IMG/VR virus record: IMGVR_UViG_3300045135_000693
Coordinates: 1 to 20,245 of that record
Strand: one strand, 5' to 3'
Length of the DNA: 20,245 nucleotides
Source of the DNA: a virus
In this document: in pieces, positions 8,839-18,562 of the stretch
Layout: the number at the start of each line of letters is the position of its first letter
How positions within the stretch are numbered: position 1 is the first letter of the stretch
Made by a program: the position numbers and the translations under genes
The notes under the pieces: generated by a model
Told to the model about the DNA's origin: nothing
Databases searched by the model: none
What the model saw: only the letters and a program-made list of their open reading frames with translations

Positions 8839-10110
8839 TTATACACTTTCGGTAATAGATAAATTAGAATCGAAATCAAAAGATTCTTGTGGCATATTAG
8901 GTGGAAAGTCTTGTCCTATATGACTTAGTATGTGTTCTATTACAGGCACACAAAAACCATTACCTAGCATCTTTAATCTCTGAGTATTGCTTATAGTACC
9001 ATCACCAATAGTCCAATCTTCACAACCTTGTAAGCGTTCTGCTTCTCTTACAGTTAGCTTTCTCACAGTAGGGTGTTCATAGACCATAAAGTTTGGCTTA
9101 GTTTCTAAGCAATTACTCTTGTGCTTCATATTTCGCCCTCTTCGTGTCTTTGAGTTCGGAAAGGTGTAATCAAAGGCATCACCATTTTCTATGTCTGTAT
9201 AGCCTTTTTTCGTAGCCTCTGGAACTCTTAGAACTACATTGTCTTTTTCAACTGTAGTAAGTGTGTTTGTTTTTTCATCATCACGAATTTCTAATTGTTG
9301 AACATATTTAGCATCTGGGTTGTTATCATCCCTAACGCCTTGTTCGTTAATCTTGCGACCTCTCCAAGCACCACATTTAACTTCATAGAGTCCAGTTTTT
9401 CCACCTTGTCCACCACCATTAGCAGTTAAGCATTTAGATTTTTGGTCAATTGAATAAACTCTGGTAGCTTGTGCAGGTTTGTTACCTACATAACCTAAAA
9501 CTCCAGAAGTGTTTCCGTTTGGCTTGTAATATGGTTCACGATATATAATCTCAGACTCAACATTTGGCTCTAATATGTCCTTTAACACAATACCCCTGTC
9601 TTGTGGTTGGGTAATGTGAAAATTTGCCCAAAAACATCTTTTTCTTGATTGAGCAGATACTAATGATGCATCAATTTCTACATGCTTAACACCAATAATA
9701 TCGTCTAACAAATCTAGCCATTCAGTTTTCATTCTGACATTCTCAAATATCCAATACTTAGGCTTTACCTTTTTCATTAATTCTAAAGCAGGTATTAGTA
9801 AACCAGAGCGTTCATCTTCTAGTCCTAATCTTTTTCCAGAATTACTAAAGCCTTGACATGGTGAACCAAGAACCATTAAATCACATTCACCAATATCATC
9901 AACATTAGCATCCATAATGTCACCCATATGTTCAATATTAGGAAAATTAAAGGATGTTAATTCAATAGCATGTTTGTCAATCTCAAAACTTTTGTATGAC
10001 TTAATTTTTACTTTTTGATTTATTAAAGCAATCATAAGTCCTTCCATTCCACCAAAGCAAGATACAACTCTGATTCCATCTGGGTACATTTCGTTAAGTA
10101 AATTTTTCAT
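8839..10110 (-). CDS. C5 cytosine DNA methyltransferase with long target-recognition region
   Basis: The enzyme transfers a methyl group from S-adenosylmethionine to C5 of cytosine in a specific sequence. Motifs in order: I (VVSCFGGMEGLMIAL, residues 15-29), IV with the catalytic cysteine (GSPCQGFSNSG, C85), VI (FENV, 122-125), VIII (QSRKRCF, 154-160), then a long target-recognition region of about 190 residues, then IX (RKLTVREAERLQGCEDW) and X (KMLGNGFCVPV). All key residues are present, so it should be active. The recognition region contains echoing segments (KCLTANGGG, NTLTTVEKDNVV, NCLETKPNF). No restriction partner is nearby, so it is probably an orphan that protects phage DNA from host restriction. 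It starts with a TAATG overlap with the first operon gene. Confidence 0.93.
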   Translation of the reverse strand: MKNLLNEMYPDGIRVVSCFGGMEGLMIALINQKVKIKSYKSFEIDKHAIELTSFNFPNIEHMGDIMDANVDDIGECDLMVLGSPCQGFSNSGKRLGLEDERSGLLIPALELMKKVKPKYWIFENVRMKTEWLDLLDDIIGVKHVEIDASLVSAQSRKRCFWANFHITQPQDRGIVLKDILEPNVESEIIYREPYYKPNGNTSGVLGYVGNKPAQATRVYSIDQKSKCLTANGGGQGGKTGLYEVKCGAWRGRKINEQGVRDDNNPDAKYVQQLEIRDDEKTNTLTTVEKDNVVLRVPEATKKGYTDIENGDAFDYTFPNSKTRRGRNMKHKSNCLETKPNFMVYEHPTVRKLTVREAERLQGCEDWTIGDGTISNTQRLKMLGNGFCVPVIEHILSHIGQDFPPNMPQESFDFDSNLSITESV

Positions 10111-10526
10111 TAGCTATTTGCCCTAAAAAGACGAACTGCCATTGACTCTGAACAAACAAATTTATCATTAGTTTTGATGTCTTGAATGACAAAAGGTTTT
10201 TTTCTTGCTCGTTTTTTAAAACCAACTAATTTAAATTTTCTACTTCCTTCAGTAGCAATAATAGATGCATCAAGATTAAAAGCGTATGGACTTGTTTGTC
10301 TAAAATCCAATTCTGATTCTAATGCTTTTTCTTCTTCAGTTTTAGCATCAGATAAAGATATTATAAAACCATTAAACTTGACTGAGTCTGAGTCATAACT
10401 TCCGTTGCCTAATTCAAACCTCAAATTGTTATCTTCCATAATGTCTGATAATGAGTCTTTGATTATTTGACGAATTTGTTTAATAGTTTCTGGGTTTATT
10501 TGTGTAATGTTATATTTAGTTTTCAT
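10110..10526 (-). CDS. unknown protein, first gene of the leftward operon, 138 aa
   Basis: ATG at 10526 has AGAGGATAAA before it and is the first gene after the leftward promoter (-10 at about 10570), about 35 bases from the predicted start of transcription. The N-terminus is helical and charged (TIKQIRQIIKDSLSDIMEDN). The middle is beta-rich (SVKFNGFIISLSDAKT). The C-terminal part is basic, with a KKRARKKPFVI cluster, then IQDIKTNDKFVCSESMAVRL. The basic patch suggests nucleic-acid contact. Being expressed first and coupled to the methyltransferase, it may be an early regulator or host-takeover factor; no family is recognised. Confidence 0.72.
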   Translation of the reverse strand: MKTKYNITQINPETIKQIRQIIKDSLSDIMEDNNLRFELGNGSYDSDSVKFNGFIISLSDAKTEEEKALESELDFRQTSPYAFNLDASIIATEGSRKFKLVGFKKRARKKPFVIQDIKTNDKFVCSESMAVRLFRANS

Positions 10527-10598: not shown

Positions 10599-10717
10599 CC
10601 TAAAGTGTATAACATTTAAAAATACGATTTGTTTTTTAGGTGGGGTAAACTCCCTTAGGGGGTTTTACAAAATGATCTTTTGGAGCAAATAATGGTCCAT
10701 ATGGTTGTGGTCTATAT

Positions 10718-10747
10718 GAGAATCGTTATCATTATCATTATCATTTG
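10718..10747. promoter_or_regulatory. Fur-box-like array of GATAAT repeats (site 1)
   Basis: On the minus strand the bases read GATAAT-GATAAT-GATAAC, three direct hexamers of the kind described for the Escherichia coli Fur site. The 19-mer at 10742-10724 matches the Fur consensus GATAATGATAATCATTATC at 15 of 19 positions. The plus-strand window 10718-10736 also reaches 15 of 19. It lies upstream of the rightward acidic/cysteine operon. An alternative is a simple ATTATC microsatellite, here also read as Ile codons of a possible leader peptide. Confidence 0.5.
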
Positions 10748-10889
10748 AAATTTCAGATCCTGGGAGCATCTCAAAAATCCAGGTTGTAAACTTGATGCAA
10801 AAATTGACAACAAATACAGGCTAAATTATTGGGTGTGTCTTTTGTGTATCTTTTGGTAAAAGGTTCTTTTTTTCGTGTATATTAAATAG

Positions 10890-10903
10890 TGTCAATTTTG
10901 ACA
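10890..10903. promoter_or_regulatory. TGTCAA-TT-TTGACA palindrome before the rightward operon
   Basis: A perfect 6-2-6 inverted repeat lies seven bases after a TATATT (10878-10883) and 20 bases before the first rightward gene start (10924). Related half-sites occur at 10799-10809 (AAAAATTGACA) and 12288-12298 (TGTCAATTTTT). It could be an operator for a phage regulator controlling rightward transcription. Confidence 0.45.
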
Positions 10904-10923
10904 ATTTTTAAAGGATGAAAATT

Positions 10924-11067
10924 ATGGATGAATTAACACTAAAATTTTTAAAGAGTTTTGTTGATAACAAATTGAATCAAACAAGATGTACCGACCCTTT
11001 TATGTGGTCAAGGGTTCATGACTATATTACAAAACAACTAAACCAATTAAAGGAGGTAAAAAAATGA
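10924..11067 (+). CDS. unknown small protein, 47 aa
   Basis: The ATG at 10924 has AAAGGA nine bases upstream; the ATG at 10915 would sit directly against that site. The frame ends at TGA 11065-11067, giving an ATGA overlap with the next gene. The peptide (MDELTLKFLKSFVDNKLNQT, then RCTDPFMWSRVHDYITKQLN) looks helical and basic. The last codons contain the AAGGAGG of the following gene. As first gene of a three-gene operon with coupling it is likely real; the function is unknown. Confidence 0.68.
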   Translation: MDELTLKFLKSFVDNKLNQTRCTDPFMWSRVHDYITKQLNQLKEVKK

Positions 11068-11354
11068 TATATGAAGAACTAACAGAGTCACAAATGCATC
11101 ACACCTTGATGAGTGATGAGTATGCAAACTGGACATATGAACAGGCACAAGGCATAGTTGACTTTTTTATGGACATGTATGGTGATGATGAAAATTATCA
11201 ATGGGATGTCGTTGCCATTCGTTGTGAGTTCTCAGGCTATGAAAGCATAGAAGAGGCAGAAGATAATTACATACTTGATGAAGATGAATCACTAGAGGAT
11301 GTGACACTAGTGATTTTTTGTGATGATGGTCATGTAGTTGTACAAGATTATTAA
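11064..11354 (+). CDS. conserved-type acidic phage protein, 96 aa
   Basis: AAAGGAGGT gives a very strong ribosome site before ATG 11064. The protein is highly acidic. The run EDNYILDEDESLEDVTLVIF is preceded by WDVVAIRCEFSGYESIEEAE, a phrase I associate with a widespread small phage/plasmid protein group of unknown function (W-D-V-V-A-I-R-C-x-[FY]-S-x-Y-x-S-I-E-E). The low-pI surface invites a DNA-mimic interpretation, as in some anti-restriction proteins, but no such family motif is certain. It overlaps the preceding gene by four bases and is followed 19 bases later by the six-cysteine protein gene. Confidence 0.78.
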   Translation: MIYEELTESQMHHTLMSDEYANWTYEQAQGIVDFFMDMYGDDENYQWDVVAIRCEFSGYESIEEAEDNYILDEDESLEDVTLVIFCDDGHVVVQDY

Positions 11355-11373
11355 TAATAAGGAGATAAATAAA

Positions 11374-11946
11374 ATGCATATAAATAATTTAAATTACAGA
11401 GATAGAGATTTCTTAAAGTCTTTAATTGTGGCTAGTCAAGAAGTCATCATTAATCAATATCAACATCACATTAATCAGTTTGAACAAATTGACTCAGAGT
11501 TGTTTGAAAAATTGGCTAATGTTGACTTGAAAATAAAGTATCAATCACCACAAGGTGTATCCATTGGATATGATAAAAAAATAGAGCAATTGACTCAAAA
11601 TTTCTGTGACTTATTGGGGAGATTAAGGACGCAAGGAGAACACGCAGGATACATGGATATGTGTGGTCACTTGATAGTCAATGAGTTAGTTGACTCTTAT
11701 GAAATTAGTGAGGTCATGGATATGTACAACATTGATGCACATGAACTTAGGGAACATGTTTTTGACTACTGTGAAGATGAAACAACAATAGAATATTTCA
11801 AAGACCTTTTCATGGAGTTAGATTTATCTTGTTCATGGTGTGAAGAGGAGTTTGATGACTGTGGAGTTTGTCAAAATACTGAGTGTGATGAATGTGATGA
11901 TGCTTATCTATCAGACGAACAACTAGAGGAAAAATACGGAGAATAA
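11374..11946 (+). CDS. acidic protein with C-terminal triple CxxC cluster, 190 aa
   Basis: ATG 11374 is preceded by AAGGAGATAAATAAA; an earlier in-frame ATG at 11338 lies inside the previous gene and has no ribosome site. The N-terminal ~100 residues are helical (DFLKSLIVASQEVIINQYQH then KIEQLTQNFCDLLGRLRTQG). A middle acidic helical part follows (VNELVDSYEISEVMDMYNID). The end is LSCSWCEEEFDDCGVCQN and TECDECDDAYL: three CxxC pairs with spacing x6 and x4. Six cysteines in that order suggest a metal-binding knuckle (zinc or iron). It closes the rightward operon, before a strong terminator and behind Fur-box-like site 1. The family is unknown. Confidence 0.75.
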   Translation: MHINNLNYRDRDFLKSLIVASQEVIINQYQHHINQFEQIDSELFEKLANVDLKIKYQSPQGVSIGYDKKIEQLTQNFCDLLGRLRTQGEHAGYMDMCGHLIVNELVDSYEISEVMDMYNIDAHELREHVFDYCEDETTIEYFKDLFMELDLSCSWCEEEFDDCGVCQNTECDECDDAYLSDEQLEEKYGE

Positions 11947-11968
11947 TTTAAACTAACAAGGAGAAAAG

Positions 11969-11994
11969 AACCCCCTTTATTGGGGGTTTTTTTT
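11969..11994 (+). terminator. strong rho-independent terminator
   Basis: Stem AACCCCC (11969-11975) / GGGGGTT (11982-11988), loop TTTATT, running into eight T (11987-11994). It lies 22 bases after the stop of the six-cysteine gene and ends the rightward three-gene operon. Confidence 0.9.
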
Positions 11995-12168
11995 GGTCTG
12001 CAAAATATGCCAAAATTGAGATTATTAAAAAGACATAGCAATATAAGCCTAAACAACAAAGTACCGAAATATCGAATATTTGGAATTATTAGAGCATATT
12101 ACAAAATTAGTATTACATCTATTTAATTTATAGGCTAAACTCTAAAGTATCAACTTAACCAGATAAAC

Positions 12169-12195
12169 AAAAGCCTTCTTTACAGAGGCTTTTTT
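12169..12195 (+). terminator. second rho-independent terminator
   Basis: Stem AAAAGCCT (12169-12176) / AGGCTTTT (12186-12193), nine-base loop, and six T (12190-12195). No gene ends here: the previous gene stop is 220 bases away and already has its own terminator. It may therefore be a backup, or the 3' end of a short untranslated RNA. Confidence 0.78.
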
Positions 12196-12300
12196 ATTAT
12201 CTTGAATCTATTTAATATCTAATTAATTAAGTCCTCTAGTATCTAAAATTTGATAGCTTAAATGATGGCAGCCAAACAAGAAATAAATGTCAATTTTTCA

Positions 12301-12322
12301 TAGATCGGTTTAGATCGGTTTA
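12301..12322. repeat. 10-bp tandem repeat TAGATCGGTT x2
   Basis: Two exact adjacent copies of TAGATCGGTT followed by TA. The 10-base period equals about one turn of the helix, so two protein subunits would lie on the same face. It sits upstream of the late operon, in non-coding DNA. Confidence 0.6.
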
Positions 12323-12489
12323 AATTTTATTAATGAAATCTTTTAAAAAAAATCATTATCCGACATTTTTATTTTTAAATTTTAATTTGTTTTTTTTGTC
12401 ATTATTGTCATAAAAATATTGAATACCTTAGTAATTTAGTCAAGTATTATGTGTTTCTTGTCAGTAAACTTTATTTCTCCTGGATCAAC

Positions 12490-12509
12490 TGATAATGATA
12501 ATCATTCGC
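12490..12509. promoter_or_regulatory. near-consensus Fur box (site 2), upstream of terS
   Basis: GATAATGATAATCATTCGC (12491-12509) matches the 19-base Fur consensus at 17 of 19 positions; the core AATGAT-A-ATCATT (12494-12506) is a perfect 6-1-6 palindrome. It lies 106 bases before the small terminase gene in non-coding DNA. The match is seen directly; binding by Fur is inference. Confidence 0.62.
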
Positions 12510-12614
12510 ATTAGAGGGGCCATACCCCCTACAAAATTAAAATTTGTCTTAGACTATAACCCCAGACACAAAAAACGAAATTTCAAAAAAATTTGACTTT
12601 TAGGACTAAAAACT

Positions 12615-13004
12615 ATGTCAGAAAAGAAAAAAAGAGGTAATCCTAACTTCTATAAAGGAATGCCATCTTTAAATCCTGCAGGAAAACCTAAAGGAACTAT
12701 GAATAAGTATGCTGCTCTCTCAAGAGAACTTATGAATGAGAACGCAGTAGAAATTGTAGCTACTGTTCTGCAAAAAGCTAAAGATGGAGATGTGCATTGC
12801 TTAAAAATGTGCATGGATAGAATATTACCTGTACAAAAAGCCATAGATCCGAATAGAACAAAAAATGATGCTCAAGTTATTATTAATGTTGCTTCTATAG
12901 AGTCTATTGAAAAAAAAGCTAGTGAATATGACGAGGCTGAGTTAGTAGAACCAGAAGAAAAGAGTGACGATGAAATAATTGTTAATGTAGCAACTAATGG
13001 CTGA
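12615..13004 (+). CDS. terS: putative small terminase subunit (DUF5681-like N-terminus), 129 aa
   Basis: The N-terminus GNPNFYKGMPSLNPAGKPKG is the DUF5681-type signature (G-N-P then N-P-A-G-x-P-K-G), a small DNA-packaging-associated domain often encoded directly before a large terminase. It is followed by a helical part (YAALSRELMNENAVEIVATV then LQKAKDGDVHCLKMCMDRIL) and an acidic tail. As the small subunit it would recognise packaging sites and stimulate TerL. ATG 12615 has AGGA about ten bases upstream; the end overlaps terL by eight bases. The role rests on signature and position. Confidence 0.78.
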   Translation: MSEKKKRGNPNFYKGMPSLNPAGKPKGTMNKYAALSRELMNENAVEIVATVLQKAKDGDVHCLKMCMDRILPVQKAIDPNRTKNDAQVIINVASIESIEKKASEYDEAELVEPEEKSDDEIIVNVATNG

Positions 13005-14247
13005 ACTAAATATTGATTTGCATCCTGCGCAGTTGCAAATATTTAATTCTAAAAAGAGATTTAAGATTGTAGCTGCTGGGAGAAGATTTGGCAAGTCTTA
13101 TTTGTCTGCTTGGATGTTACTTATTAATGCTATACAGTCTGAATCCAAAGATGTGTTTTATATTGGGCCTACTTTTCAACAAGCCAAAGATATTATGTGG
13201 GCGATGTTAAAAGACTTAGGTAAAGATTTAATATCACAAGCACACGAAAACACAGCAGTTCTTACATTAATCAATGGTCGCAAAATATATCTGAAGGGCA
13301 GCGATCGGCCCGACACGCTGCGTGGCGTAGGCTTGGCATTTTGCGTTTTGGATGAATATGCCTCAATGAAACCACAAGTCTGGGAGCAGATTATTAGACC
13401 TACGCTTTCAGATGTACAAGGTGGTGCTTTATTTATCGGAACACCTGCGGGTAAAAACCATTTTTACGAATTATATAAAGATGCGTTTGATGATGACGAT
13501 TGGGATGCGTTTCAATTTACATCAACAGACAACCCCTTTATACCAGATAGCGAAATAAAGGCCGCTAGTAAAACCATGTCATCTATGTCATTTAGGCAAG
13601 AATTCGAGGCATCGTTTGAAACTAACTCTGGCGGCATATTCAAAGAAGAATGGTTTCAAAAAGCAGAAGAGCCAGAAGAAGGAGCGTATGTTATAGCAGT
13701 TGACCCTGCTGGTTTTGAATCTATAGAAAAAGAACGCAATTTAAAAAGATCCAGGCTAGACGAAACAGCTATTGCGATTGTTAAGATAGATCGTGATAAG
13801 TGGTGGGTTAAAGACATTCTACATGGTCGGTGGAATGTAAAAGAAACTGCTAAAAAAATTCTTTCATCTGCGATGAAGGTAGAGGCAGCTACAGTTGGAA
13901 TAGAAACTGGGTCGCTGCGTAACGCTATATTACCCTACTTAGAAGATGAAATGCGTATCGCAGGAAGATGGATTACTATTATAGAATTACGACATGGCGG
14001 CAAAAAGAAAACAGAACGCATTACATGGGCATTACAAGGTCGCATGGAACATGGTCAAATTAGTTTTAACGAAAAAAAAGATTGGAAAGATTTTTTAGGT
14101 CAACTTAATGACTTTCCTAATCATTTAGCACATGACGATCAACTCGATGCTTTGGCTTATATAGACCAAGTAAGTGTTGCAGATTTTGCTCATAGCATTG
14201 AATTGGCAGATGATTGGGAGGTACTAGATAGTGTCGCTGGATATTAA
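12997..14247 (+). CDS. terL: terminase large subunit (packaging ATPase/nuclease)
   Basis: This is the motor ATPase and endonuclease that cuts and pumps phage DNA into the prohead. The ATPase domain has Walker A AAGRRFGKSY (residues 26-35), Walker B LAFCVLDEYA (113-122, catalytic E120) and the coupling-type segment GGALFIGTPAGKNHF. The RNase H-like nuclease domain has VIAVDPAG with the first Asp, IETGS with the next acidic residue, and near the C-terminus HDDQLDALAYID with the last metal ligands. The 416-aa length is at the short end for TerL but all motifs are present. No ribosome site is seen; it is coupled to terS by overlap, and overlaps the next gene by 17 bases. Confidence 0.97.
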   Translation: MAELNIDLHPAQLQIFNSKKRFKIVAAGRRFGKSYLSAWMLLINAIQSESKDVFYIGPTFQQAKDIMWAMLKDLGKDLISQAHENTAVLTLINGRKIYLKGSDRPDTLRGVGLAFCVLDEYASMKPQVWEQIIRPTLSDVQGGALFIGTPAGKNHFYELYKDAFDDDDWDAFQFTSTDNPFIPDSEIKAASKTMSSMSFRQEFEASFETNSGGIFKEEWFQKAEEPEEGAYVIAVDPAGFESIEKERNLKRSRLDETAIAIVKIDRDKWWVKDILHGRWNVKETAKKILSSAMKVEAATVGIETGSLRNAILPYLEDEMRIAGRWITIIELRHGGKKKTERITWALQGRMEHGQISFNEKKDWKDFLGQLNDFPNHLAHDDQLDALAYIDQVSVADFAHSIELADDWEVLDSVAGY

Positions 14248-14482
14248 GACAATATTTGAAGAAGATATGACTGAAGAGGAGATAGTAGAACTATTAAAAT
14301 ACAGTTCTGACGATAGCACCCTCACAAAAAGATACATGGTAGCTTGTCAAATCATTAGTAATTTAACAAGTGAAATACCAGAAGATGTTTTAGAGCAAAA
14401 TGAACTTGTCGATTTAACAATTTGTAAAATGTTGGTAGATGGTTTAATACAAGTAGAAGAAGAAAATCATTCTTTACACTAA
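14231..14482 (+). CDS. unknown small acidic protein between terL and portal, 83 aa (GTG start)
   Basis: GTG at 14231 has GGGAGG nine bases before it, inside the end of terL. The first ATG (codon 13, 14267) has no ribosome site. The protein is acidic and helical: MTEEEIVELLKYSSDDSTLT then RYMVACQIISNLTSEIPEDV. There are no motifs. Its location in the terminase-portal block suggests a packaging or head assembly accessory role. Its stop is directly followed by the Fur-box-like site 3. Confidence 0.7.
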   Translation: MSLDIKTIFEEDMTEEEIVELLKYSSDDSTLTKRYMVACQIISNLTSEIPEDVLEQNELVDLTICKMLVDGLIQVEEENHSLH

Positions 14483-14483
14483 A

Positions 14484-14498
14484 TGATAATGATTATCA
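14484..14498. promoter_or_regulatory. perfect 7-1-7 Fur-type inverted repeat (site 3), upstream of portal
   Basis: TGATAAT-G-ATTATCA is a perfect heptamer inverted repeat, the 7-1-7 form used to describe Fur-family operators; the overlapping 19-mer 14485-14503 matches the Fur consensus at 15 of 19. It begins two bases after the preceding stop codon and ends one base before a -35-like TTGCAT. Confidence 0.65.
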
Positions 14499-14499
14499 A

Positions 14500-14528
14500 T
14501 TGCATCTATTATAAAAAAGTGTTAAAAT
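14500..14528 (+). promoter_or_regulatory. promoter-like sequence driving portal and capsid genes
   Basis: TTGCAT (14500-14505, 3 of 6 to TTGACA), a 17-base spacer, and TAAAAT (14523-14528, 5 of 6), with a TGT just before it making an extended -10 (TGTTAAAAT). The start would be near 14535. The Fur-type repeat abuts the -35, so a bound dimer would affect polymerase access. Confidence 0.55.
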
Positions 14529-14552: not shown

Positions 14553-14570
14553 ATGAACCCATATGAATAA
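14553..14570 (+). CDS. possible five-codon leader ORF overlapping the portal start
   Basis: ATG AAC CCA TAT GAA TAA encodes MNPYE and has GGAG six bases upstream, an ideal spacing. The portal ATG (14563) lies within it in another frame, 16 bases from that ribosome site, too far for direct use. No in-frame upstream start exists for portal because TGA occurs at 14554-14556. Ribosomes ending the mini-ORF at 14570 could re-initiate at the portal start. Coding of a functional peptide is not claimed. Confidence 0.4.
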   Translation: MNPYE

Positions 14571-16524
14571 ACAAGAAAATAAATATCAAGCACTTGCTAG
14601 TTGGTTAAGTTATCGTCTTGAAGGGTGGAGAACTCACAGAAATATTAATTACATTCCAATGTGGGATGAATATTACAGATTATGGCGTGGTATTTGGTCT
14701 GCTGAAGATAAAACTAGAGCAAATGAGAGATCCAGGCTTATTTCTCCCGCATTACAACAAGCAGTTGAGTCATCTGTTGCTGAATTAGAAGAGGCAACTT
14801 TTGGCAGGGGAAAATGGTTCGATATACAAGATGATTATTTAGACCAGGATCCTAGTGATGCTGAGTATGTTCGTAATTTATTGCAAGAAGATTTAGAAAA
14901 AACAGGTTGTAAAGATGCAATTTGTGAAGTTTTCTTAAATAGTGCTATATATGGCACAGGTATTGGCAAAATTGTAGTCAAACAAAAGATAGAGCGGGCC
15001 CCAGCAGAAGTGCCAATTGAAGGAACAATGGCTACAACTCGTACAGTTGTTGAATACCCAGCTATTGATGTTCATGTTGAGCCTATATCTCCGAAAGAAT
15101 TCTTAATTGACCCATCAGCAAACTCAATTGACGATGCTTTAGGCGTTGCTCACGAAGTTATTAAGCCTAGATACCATGTTGTAGAAGGAATACGCTCTGG
15201 AATATACAGAGATGTTCCTCTTGATGGTGATTATGAGTCAGTAAAATTTGGTTATGACCCAGAAACAAAACAAGCAGACGAATCTGACTCTGTAAAAATA
15301 TGTGAATACTGGGGTTTAGTTCCAAAAAGGTTTTTAAAACCAAATCAAGACAAAGATGATTTTGAATATGATAAATCTAATGCAAATGAGTTAGTAGAAG
15401 CAGTTGTTACTATGTGTAACGACCAACATATTCTTAGAGTTGAAGAAAATGCGTTTATGATGGAAGATAGACCATTTATTTCTTATCAACATGACATCGT
15501 ACCAAATAAATTCTGGGGTAGGGGTGTTTGTGAAAAGGGGTATAACCCGCAAAAAGCCTTAGATGCTGAAATGAGAGCAAGAATTGATTCTTTAGCATTA
15601 ACTACTACGCCAATGATGGCCGCAGACGCTAGTAGACTACCTAGAGGTGTAAAGTTTGAAGTGAGAGCAGGAAAAACTGTTCTGACCAATGGAAATCCAC
15701 GAGAAGCTATCATGCCTCTCGACATGGGTACTACAGATCCTAATACATTTAATCAGGTTGCCTCACTTCAAAACATGATTCAAATGGGAACTGGTTCTGC
15801 TGATAGTGCTTCACAAGGTGGTGAAACTGCTAGTGGCATGTCAATGATGCAAAGTGCTGCAATTAAAAGACAAAAGCGTACTTTAATGAATTTTCAAAAC
15901 ACATTCCTTATACCTTTAATACAAAAAGCAATGTGGAGAAAGATTCAGTTTGATGTAGACAGATATCCTGTTAATGATTACAAATTTATACCATATTCGA
16001 CTATGGGTATTATGGCTAAAGAGTTAGAAATGACTCAAATGGTGCAAATGTTACAAACGATTCCACAAGATTCACCTGCATTTGATGTAATCTTGTTAGC
16101 ATTGTTCCAAAACTCATCTATACATAATAGAGATCAGATTGTTAATGCACTTATGGAAGGCGGTGAGCCAGACCCACAAATGGAAGAAATGCAACAAATG
16201 GGTATGCAGATAGAAATGCAGCAATTACAAGCTAATGTACAGAAAACACTTGCAGAAGCTAAAGAAGAAGAGGCACAGGCTATATTGCATCAAGCTGATG
16301 CTATGAGCAAACAGCCTAATGATATAGATGTGCAAGAAAAAATACTTAAATTGCAAAAAGATTCTATAGCCATCGAAAAAGGTATTGCAGATATTGAAAA
16401 TATGCGTTCTGAAACTGCCAGAAACATACCAGAAGTAGAACATTTACAATCTGAAACAATTTTAAACCTAGCTAAAGCTAGAGAAGCAGGTAAAAAAACA
16501 CAGGTAACTAATACCGTACAATAA
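14563..16524 (+). CDS. portal protein, 653 aa
   Basis: The portal forms the dodecameric ring through which DNA enters and leaves the head. Size, position after terL and before scaffold/capsid, and the sequence all fit. A helical N-terminus (WRTHRNINYIPMWDEYYRLW) and RSRLISPALQQAVESSVAEL then EEATFGRGKWFDI are typical of portals of podovirus-like marine phages. A core with VHVEPISPKEFLIDPSANSI follows, then GRGVCEKGYNPQKALDAEMR (wing/stem part) and SASQGGETASGMSMMQSAAI. The C-terminal ~120 residues are Gln/Glu-rich coiled coil (MQQLQANVQKTLAEAKEEEA), possibly the barrel extension. The start is the only ATG available near the gap (stop in frame just upstream). Confidence 0.92.
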   Translation: MNKQENKYQALASWLSYRLEGWRTHRNINYIPMWDEYYRLWRGIWSAEDKTRANERSRLISPALQQAVESSVAELEEATFGRGKWFDIQDDYLDQDPSDAEYVRNLLQEDLEKTGCKDAICEVFLNSAIYGTGIGKIVVKQKIERAPAEVPIEGTMATTRTVVEYPAIDVHVEPISPKEFLIDPSANSIDDALGVAHEVIKPRYHVVEGIRSGIYRDVPLDGDYESVKFGYDPETKQADESDSVKICEYWGLVPKRFLKPNQDKDDFEYDKSNANELVEAVVTMCNDQHILRVEENAFMMEDRPFISYQHDIVPNKFWGRGVCEKGYNPQKALDAEMRARIDSLALTTTPMMAADASRLPRGVKFEVRAGKTVLTNGNPREAIMPLDMGTTDPNTFNQVASLQNMIQMGTGSADSASQGGETASGMSMMQSAAIKRQKRTLMNFQNTFLIPLIQKAMWRKIQFDVDRYPVNDYKFIPYSTMGIMAKELEMTQMVQMLQTIPQDSPAFDVILLALFQNSSIHNRDQIVNALMEGGEPDPQMEEMQQMGMQIEMQQLQANVQKTLAEAKEEEAQAILHQADAMSKQPNDIDVQEKILKLQKDSIAIEKGIADIENMRSETARNIPEVEHLQSETILNLAKAREAGKKTQVTNTVQ

Positions 16525-17632: not shown

Positions 17633-18562
17633 ATGGCTTTGGGTACAAACCAAGTAACGACTGCCGTAGCTAATAACTTCATCCCCGAATTGTGGAGTGA
17701 TGAAGTAATAGGTGCGTATAAGTCAAATCTAGTGGTTGCTAACCTAGTAACTAAACTTTCTCATAAAGGCAAAAAAGGCGATACAATCTATATTCCTGTG
17801 CCGGCAAGAGGAAGTGCAAGTGCTAAAGCAGCAAACACACAAGTAACACTATCAGCAGCTACTAATACGAAAGTAACAGTCAGTATTGATAAGCATTACG
17901 AATATTCAAAACTAATTGAAGATATTGCAGAAGTGCAATCACTAGCTTCAATGCGCAAGTTCTACACAGATGATGCTGGCTACGCTCTCGCCAAGCAAGT
18001 TGATACTGACCTTTTTGCACTAGCAGAAGGTTTTCAAGGCGGTACAGTAGGCGGTTCAGGTTCTTCATCATATGAGAATGCTGTTATCGGTTCAAACGGT
18101 AGCACAGCTTACAATGGTGGTTCATCTAACGCTGCTGACATTACAGATGCAGGTATTCGTAGAATGCTTCTAACTCTTGATGATGCAGATGTACCGATGG
18201 ACAACCGTGTACTAATCGTACCACCAATTTGTGCTAATGACATGCTTGGAATCAACAGATTCACAGAGCAGCAGTTCATTGGTTCTGGTGATGCTATCCG
18301 TACTGGTAAGATTGGACAAATCTACGGTGTTGATGTTTACATTACATCTAACGCACCTTCGGCAGCAGGTAACTCTGGTGCTGATAGAGTAGGTATGCTT
18401 ATGCACAAGGATGCTATGGTTCTAGCTGAACAGGTTGGTGTTCGTTCACAAACACAGTACAAGCAAGAGTATTTAGGTGATCTATTCACTTCAGATACTA
18501 TTTATGGAGTTGCAGAACTTCGTAACGATGCAGCTGTTGCGTTTGTAGTACCAGGATCTTAA
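17633..18562 (+). CDS. major capsid protein (HK97-fold type), 309 aa
   Basis: The gene follows the scaffold by 24 bases with a strong ACAGGAGAAGTAAA ribosome site, and has the most GC-balanced codon use in the window, as expected for the most abundant protein. Sequence features fit HK97-fold coat proteins of marine podovirus-like phages. An N-terminal arm (NFIPELWSDEVIGAYKSNLV) leads to a basic E-loop-like region (LSHKGKKGDTIYIPVPARGS) and a spine helix (MRKFYTDDAGYALAKQVDTD). A Gly/Ser-rich insertion lies about 140-165, then LDDADVPMDNRVLIVPP and GQIYGVDVYITSNAPS, and a terminal GVAELRNDAAVAFVVPGS. No N-terminal delta domain is fused, consistent with a separate scaffold. Confidence 0.93.
   Translation: MALGTNQVTTAVANNFIPELWSDEVIGAYKSNLVVANLVTKLSHKGKKGDTIYIPVPARGSASAKAANTQVTLSAATNTKVTVSIDKHYEYSKLIEDIAEVQSLASMRKFYTDDAGYALAKQVDTDLFALAEGFQGGTVGGSGSSSYENAVIGSNGSTAYNGGSSNAADITDAGIRRMLLTLDDADVPMDNRVLIVPPICANDMLGINRFTEQQFIGSGDAIRTGKIGQIYGVDVYITSNAPSAAGNSGADRVGMLMHKDAMVLAEQVGVRSQTQYKQEYLGDLFTSDTIYGVAELRNDAAVAFVVPGS

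Follow-up and report, generated by a model that had tools for sequence, protein, structure and literature searches.

The late promoters of one phage group carry a real and conserved operator sequence of the Fur type. We describe it here from a virus record of 20,245 bases (IMG/VR record IMGVR_UViG_3300045135_000693; this whole stretch of DNA is referred to as the window) and from its relatives, which are given as numbered loci or contigs (L006 and so on). In the window, Fur-like boxes precede terS, the small terminase candidate, and the portal gene, while a related array lies in the early region. On this sequence evidence, the boxes probably act as operators for the host's Fur-family repressor on the packaging and head promoters of the phage.

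Fur-like boxes in the window

The portal-promoter box (positions 14484–14498) is a perfect TGATAATGATTATCA, an inverted repeat of the 7-1-7 type. Upstream of terS, TGATAATGATAATCA overlaps TGATAATCATTCGCA in a double box at 12490–12510, and in the divergent early region TGAGAATCGTTATCA together with more ATTATC repeats forms an array at 10717–10743. The 7-1-7 Fur motif reads TGATAATNATTATCA; Fur-box models are described in the available parts of PMC3090418 and PMC7536154. Seven window sites match this motif with at most two mismatches; 2000 dinucleotide shuffles average 0.44 such sites, and seven was reached in 0/2000. Five of these sites form the three loci, two of them overlapping at 10717/10729 and two at 12490/12496, and the best sites at the three loci have 0, 1 and 2 mismatches of 14. 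The remaining two, at 2249 and 11186, have two mismatches each, lie within genes and look like background.

The 9-mer GATAATGAT has five matches in the window (minus strand at 10728, 10734 and 12352; plus strand at 12491 and 14485) versus a mean of 0.52 in 100 dinucleotide shuffles, with five reached in 0/100. All five are non-coding, including the isolated copy at 12352, which lies outside any 7-1-7 box. The sequence-only reading that preceded this analysis had proposed three non-coding Fur-like sites and a 9-mer absent from genes; both proposals are borne out, and the sites exceed chance in the shuffles. Its scores against the 19-base E. coli Fur consensus stand in part: 17/19 at 12491–12509 is reproduced, whereas the 15 given for each of the other two sites becomes 16/19 on rescoring (10718–10736 and 14485–14503).

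Placement of the boxes at promoters

The portal box abuts a predicted sigma-70-type promoter on the plus strand (14500–14528), in which TTGCAT (14500–14505) is followed by 17 bases ending in TGT and by the -10 hexamer TAAAAT (14523–14528). The box begins 39 bases 5′ of this hexamer and, counted from an inferred start at about 14535, spans about -51 to -37. Of 20 distinct boxed portal regions, 18 have this same distance of 39 bases between the beginnings of box and -10, with the spacer sequence varying; the exceptions are L147, where it is 68, and L146, which has no visible -10. With the box given and spacers of 12–24 allowed, the spacer is 15 in all 22 distinct promoters.

An extended -10 is visible in 13 of 19 terS regions (a site of at least 11.5 bits being required). 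In the relatives, 11 of these 13 have a box that starts 10, 13 or 16 bases after the -10 start and lies over the start site, and in the other two the box starts 26 or 27 bases before it. At the portal and at terS of the relatives alike, the box overlaps or abuts the promoter. Because boxes are positioned over the start site as well as at the -35 edge, the regulator that reads them would most simply be a repressor rather than an activator. The activator reading is disfavoured by the 11 terS promoters just described; for the portal box taken alone, an activator may still be entertained.

Conservation among relatives

Scans with the portal, the 138-amino-acid (aa) gene, terS and the 58-aa gene gathered 188 loci, some contigs supplying several of them. 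When a site of at least 13 bits within 400 bases upstream is required, 20 of 68 distinct terS regions and 23 of 77 distinct portal regions are boxed, counts that are partly circular, the weight matrix having been built from phage sites. Portal promoters were also selected independently of the box, by the pattern TTGCR, 15 bases, TGn, a -10 and CG. This selection, which itself fixes the spacing, returned 23 distinct promoters, all 23 with a box 16 bases before TTGCR; three of them come solely from loci fetched by the box pattern, and 20 otherwise. Across these promoters the box has a mean column entropy of 0.26 bit, compared with 1.21 for the spacer and 0.79 for the ten bases that precede the box. 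Columns 4 (G/T), 7 (T/C), 3 (A/C), 11 (T/A) and 10 (T/G) of the box vary most.

Moreover, in 33 boxed loci (253,038 bases) 53 of 54 matches of at least 15 bits fall inside promoter zones, a figure that overstates the focus since the zones are generous, taking in about 760 bases around as many as four anchors. The boxes are conserved at the terS and portal promoters within one phage group. Conservation in relatives, which the sequence-only reading had proposed to check for the three sites, holds for these two in that group and is not general for the early one (see below).

The same motif in viral and bacterial sequences

In the viral collection, the box followed by CTTGCA occurs in 42 contigs, 33 of them at the portal or terS of this group, versus one contig for the reversed pattern used as a control. 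The box followed by (A/C)TTGCA is widespread in bacterial genomes, with at least 121 occurrences. For each of the 121 matches listed, the neighbouring gene on either side was taken as the longest open reading frame (ORF) that begins no more than 300 bases away and encodes at least 70 aa, which gave 91 and 77 ORFs; like the counts for the ATTGCA variant given below, these gene tallies are figures without a control set. Among the matches listed, Pfam assigns the 91 ORFs of one side to solute-binding proteins (19–20), a metal exporter family (six), TonB receptors (four) and FUR (three), and the 77 of the other side to ABC transporters (five), ZnuA (four), FecCD (three) and ApbE (three), the remaining neighbours being mixed.

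In the order of a Pelagibacteraceae record, the box is present in 50 of 58 genomes (including the centre genome, itself chosen for having the box) versus 7 of 58 for the reversed pattern; in the order of a Vibrio record, the motif is present in 35 of 40 genomes versus 12 of 40. Nine of the 80 bacterial composite matches listed have Pelagibacteraceae titles. Two kinds of ORF lie 14–95 bases from the box in 30 SAR11-order loci (L323–L352): by length and spacing, 11 resemble L327, 17 resemble L333 and two resemble neither. L327 is an Fe(III)-binding protein, as judged from solved relatives (iron transport protein 2pt1, E-value 1.9e-106), and L333 is a rubrerythrin. Ten SAR11-order ORFs searched against Pfam comprise six rubrerythrins, three solute-binding proteins and one without a match. 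Genes for Fe(III)-binding proteins and rubrerythrins are commonly controlled by Fur. The phage sites match a Fur-family operator sequence, as had been claimed for them, and the same motif marks bacterial iron genes, those of SAR11-order genomes included.

Published operators point in the same direction. TGATAATAATTATCATT, present in some relatives' terS sites, equals the 17-base core of the Vibrio Fur consensus given in the accessible text of PMC7536154. According to the part of PMC4506495 at hand, an alphaproteobacterial Fur protects TTAATCGCAACTCATTCGCAATTGC, which has CATTCGCA in common with some phage sites. Candidatus Pelagibacter ubique encodes Fur, as stated in the available text of PMC2864753.

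The divergent early region

The array at 10717 sits centrally in a divergent gap of 388 bases, with about 170–190 bases to either gene, and no recognisable promoter was found beside it. The sequence-only reading had placed one site directly before each rightward unit; this description does not fit the early array, and the three sites are not equivalent in placement. Among 17 contigs read in the divergent region, the array is present in seven (the window, L086, L087, L089, L090, L091 and L100), that is, in the subclade of the window only. Where it is kept, its sequence shifts yet remains Fur-like, for example TGATAATCATTATCA in L089. At the place of the window's early box, L008 and L092 have tandem TTTAGGTTATTTAGG and L095 and L097 have tandem TCGTGTATTGACTATT; these tandem repeats are perhaps replication-origin repeats.

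A second palindrome, TGTCAATTTTGACA, is positioned at the early rightward promoter (10890–10903). Either exactly as TGTCAANNTTGACA or as TGACAANNTTGTCA, it is found in 15 of the 16 contigs that reach this promoter. The latter form, a symmetrical change, is read in L089 and L091; L034 reads AGTCAATTTTGACA, and L086, the seventeenth contig, ends short of the place. Besides the window, L006, L008, L087, L094, L181 and others have the palindrome. It was found in boxed-group loci and was not found in the identified boxless loci scanned, some of which end short of that position. A phage regulator may use the palindrome as its operator.

A proposed late switch and its alternatives

From the boxes, their placement, their conservation and the motif at bacterial iron genes, all of which are observed here, we infer Fur binding, repression and release, which would proceed as follows. 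Metal-loaded host Fur would be bound next to the -35 of the portal promoter, and in the relatives it would cover the start site of the terS promoter. Bound Fur would keep RNA polymerase off the terS–terL genes and those from the portal onward. Release would occur when Fur lets go in a cell short of iron or, alternatively, when the boxes on replicating phage DNA come to outnumber the available Fur. That the host iron repressor governs the late switch of a virulent marine phage group in this way, with release by iron shortage or titration, is a tentative proposal that we hold possible rather than probable. If true, packaging would be tied to genome replication and to the iron state of the cell, without a phage-encoded late regulator.

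Several observations weigh against control by host Fur. Besides the circularity of the box counts noted above, 48 of the 68 distinct terS regions and 54 of the 77 distinct portal regions are unboxed at the same 13 bits and 400 bases. Some of these unboxed relatives have portals 80–90% identical, and L022, with a portal 97% identical, is also counted as unboxed, although its portal start is unmatched. Since most of the regions are unboxed despite similar portals, the wider phage family manages without the box. "Unboxed" here includes weak sites such as TACGAATGATTATCA at the portal of L039 and CAATAATGATTATCATTTGCAT at terS of L018 and L021; in the truly boxless L026 and L028 the portal promoter is TGTGATATAATCGGC, and in the boxless L045–L047 no promoter was seen in the 125 bases shown. 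Six of the 19 terS regions lack a visible extended -10, the one with the window's own 12490 box among them, and the early array is missing in ten of the 17 contigs. The box followed by ATTGCA occurs in 33 contigs of the viral collection, of which just nine belong to this group, and the want of a control set for this variant and for the bacterial gene tallies counts on the same side. The boxed group also has the 58-aa gene discussed below. A shared TTGCA flank of the SAR11-order and phage boxes was considered and rejected, with 0/31 SAR11-order boxes having it. Portal relatives were found in none of the genome contigs by two short peptide patterns and in 0/297 SAR11-order genomes, the latter search having had no positive control, so that its empty answer weighs little. 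Finally, strain HTCC1062 is reported to be without classic Fur boxes in the available part of PMC3090418.

Two side observations belong here. In contrast to the HTCC1062 report, SAR11-order genomes do carry a Fur-like box before the Fe(III)-binding protein and rubrerythrin. The other 24 of the 33 viral contigs with box and ATTGCA lie outside this phage group (among L387–L417).

The boxes could instead be operators of a phage-encoded regulator, with the likeness to Fur arising by convergence. The sequence-only reading had named such a regulator as its alternative, and there is one candidate, the 58-aa ribbon-helix-helix protein encoded at 1153–1329 on the minus strand. Its relatives occur at 75–100% identity in 29 fetched loci, many of them on boxed-group contigs, and the gene was present in 8 of 16 records searched. 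Moreover, among 74 ORFs searched against Pfam (of 101 picked in three boxed-group sequences), ribbon-helix-helix is the sole regulator-like DNA-binding family, AP2 and zinc-ribbon matches also being present. Ribbon-helix-helix proteins can bind tandem short repeats. However, the same motif with the same substitutions marks bacterial iron genes, and the TGTCAANNTTGACA palindrome at the early promoter could be the operator of the 58-aa protein instead. In addition, two boxless contigs have relatives of the protein, L120 (52% over 50 aa) and L158 (63% over 41 aa), and no copy turned up in the fragmentary record of the boxed L153; this distribution weakens the 58-aa protein as reader of the boxes, short of excluding it. 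We consider a phage-encoded reader unlikely. No FUR family member was found in ten relatives' records, all of them fragments, nor among the ORFs given to Pfam; a PHROGs tally shows 25 of 77 families. As a separate observation, in L187–L192 the 58-aa gene is 74–78% identical while its neighbours are about 37–67% identical; in closer contigs the neighbours are equally conserved.

If the reader is a host protein, as we favour, it might be another Fur-family member, that is, a manganese, zinc or peroxide sensor. Genes for ZnuA-type binding proteins lie beside 4 of the 77 composite sites, among the matches listed; this family also takes manganese, and the metal use of alphaproteobacterial Fur relatives varies. 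Set against this, the genes beside the motif in SAR11-order loci are mostly iron genes, and we regard a sensor of another kind as quite improbable.

A very improbable reading, in our view, is that the boxes are decoys that titrate host Fur and raise iron uptake by the cell, rather than controlling phage genes. The sites are near-perfect boxes, and a replicating phage would be expected to present several of them per genome. A decoy, however, need not sit 39 bases before the -10, as the box does in 18 of 20 portal regions, nor at two promoters, whereas 53 of the 54 matches in the 33 boxed loci lie in the (wide) promoter zones. Chance, or a promoter element of AT-rich DNA acting without any regulator, can hardly account for the boxes: the window is indeed AT-rich (34.5% G+C) and boxless relatives do without the box, but 0/2000 shuffles reach the observed count, box and spacing are conserved, and the box precedes the -10 in some promoters and follows it in others.

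Relation to known regulatory systems

Control of phage genes by host regulators has precedents. The accessible text of PMC9437464 describes CtrA-binding sites in alphaproteobacterial phages under the term "lytic deferment". As in that case, probable sites for a host transcription factor are found here at phage promoters, there in several groups and with a proposed role in lysis timing; unlike here, CtrA is a cell-cycle regulator and its sites concern few uncharacterised genes, whereas the present motif is that of an iron repressor and stands at packaging and head genes. A similar likeness holds for LexA-controlled phages and for phi29, which is controlled by Spo0A: as far as the same source goes, the lytic programme is delayed or set off by a host regulator, with DNA damage and sporulation as the signals, whereas the predicted signal here is metal.

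Fur boxes are also known on phages, at the stx1 promoter (PMC5552940, available part) and before sitABCD on lambda-like coliphages (PMC6969025, available part). Both are phage-borne genes under the host Fur regulon, as described in these excerpts, and both are accessory genes; the boxes in the present group stand at the phage's own packaging and head genes. In their 7-1-7 or GATAAT-array form and their location at promoters, the boxes resemble classical bacterial Fur operators, judging from the available portions of PMC7536154 and PMC4506495, and they differ from these in standing before viral late genes and in being known from sequence alone. Among the open-licence papers listed in literature searches, none describes Fur boxes at phage packaging or head promoters.

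Iron limits life across much of the ocean, as noted in the part of PMC2864753 at hand, and the relation of phages to iron has been treated under the name Ferrojan Horse. If control by host Fur is true, the lytic cycle itself would respond to the metal state of the host, and the capture of host regulators (LexA, Spo0A, CtrA) would be extended to metal sensing. The box would then also provide a sequence mark for seeking iron-gated phages in metagenomes.

Gene layout and affiliation of the phage group

The window is listed as linear and is for this reason perhaps a fragment. About 10% of it is non-coding in the gene set of this analysis. The order of its genes is a leftward early operon, a short rightward early operon, terS, terL, an 83-aa gene, the portal and the capsid. 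The leftward operon begins with the 138-aa gene (10110–10526, minus strand), which has no family match, and its last gene is that for the ribbon-helix-helix protein. The rightward operon (10915–11946, plus strand) comprises genes of 50, 96 and 190 aa. The third of these starts from ATG at 11374 and ends at 11946; its product is acidic with a cysteine-rich end and has no family match. Next, all on the plus strand, come terS (12615–13004), a candidate by its position before terL, with a match to Pfam DUF5681; terL, the large terminase (12997–14247; Pfam Terminase_6N); and the 83-aa gene (14231–14482), which is present in relatives and stops directly 5′ of the portal box. The portal protein (14563–16524; phrog_1216) and the major capsid protein (17633–18562; Pfam Phage_capsid_2 and P22_CoatProtein) follow.

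The phage group is uncultivated and probably of marine origin, judging from distant isolates (Pelagibacter and roseobacter phages by portal, at about 25% identity) and from the contig names. By portal, the nearest isolates are at about 20–28% identity; by large terminase they are below 60%, with the best long stretches at about 46% over half of the protein, and by capsid at about 35%. One early gene resembles those of flavobacterial phages (about 56% over 60% of its length). No tRNA genes were found in 30 loci.

A cytosine methyltransferase gene lies in the window at 8839–10110. In L066, L070, L071, L079–L081, L084 and L085, its relative sits between terS and terL, or directly before terL if terS is unseen, and these loci are without boxes at terS or portal. 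The ORFs of the group also include a PAPS reductase family gene together with an HNH endonuclease and an AP2 match (L192, L193 and window proteins).

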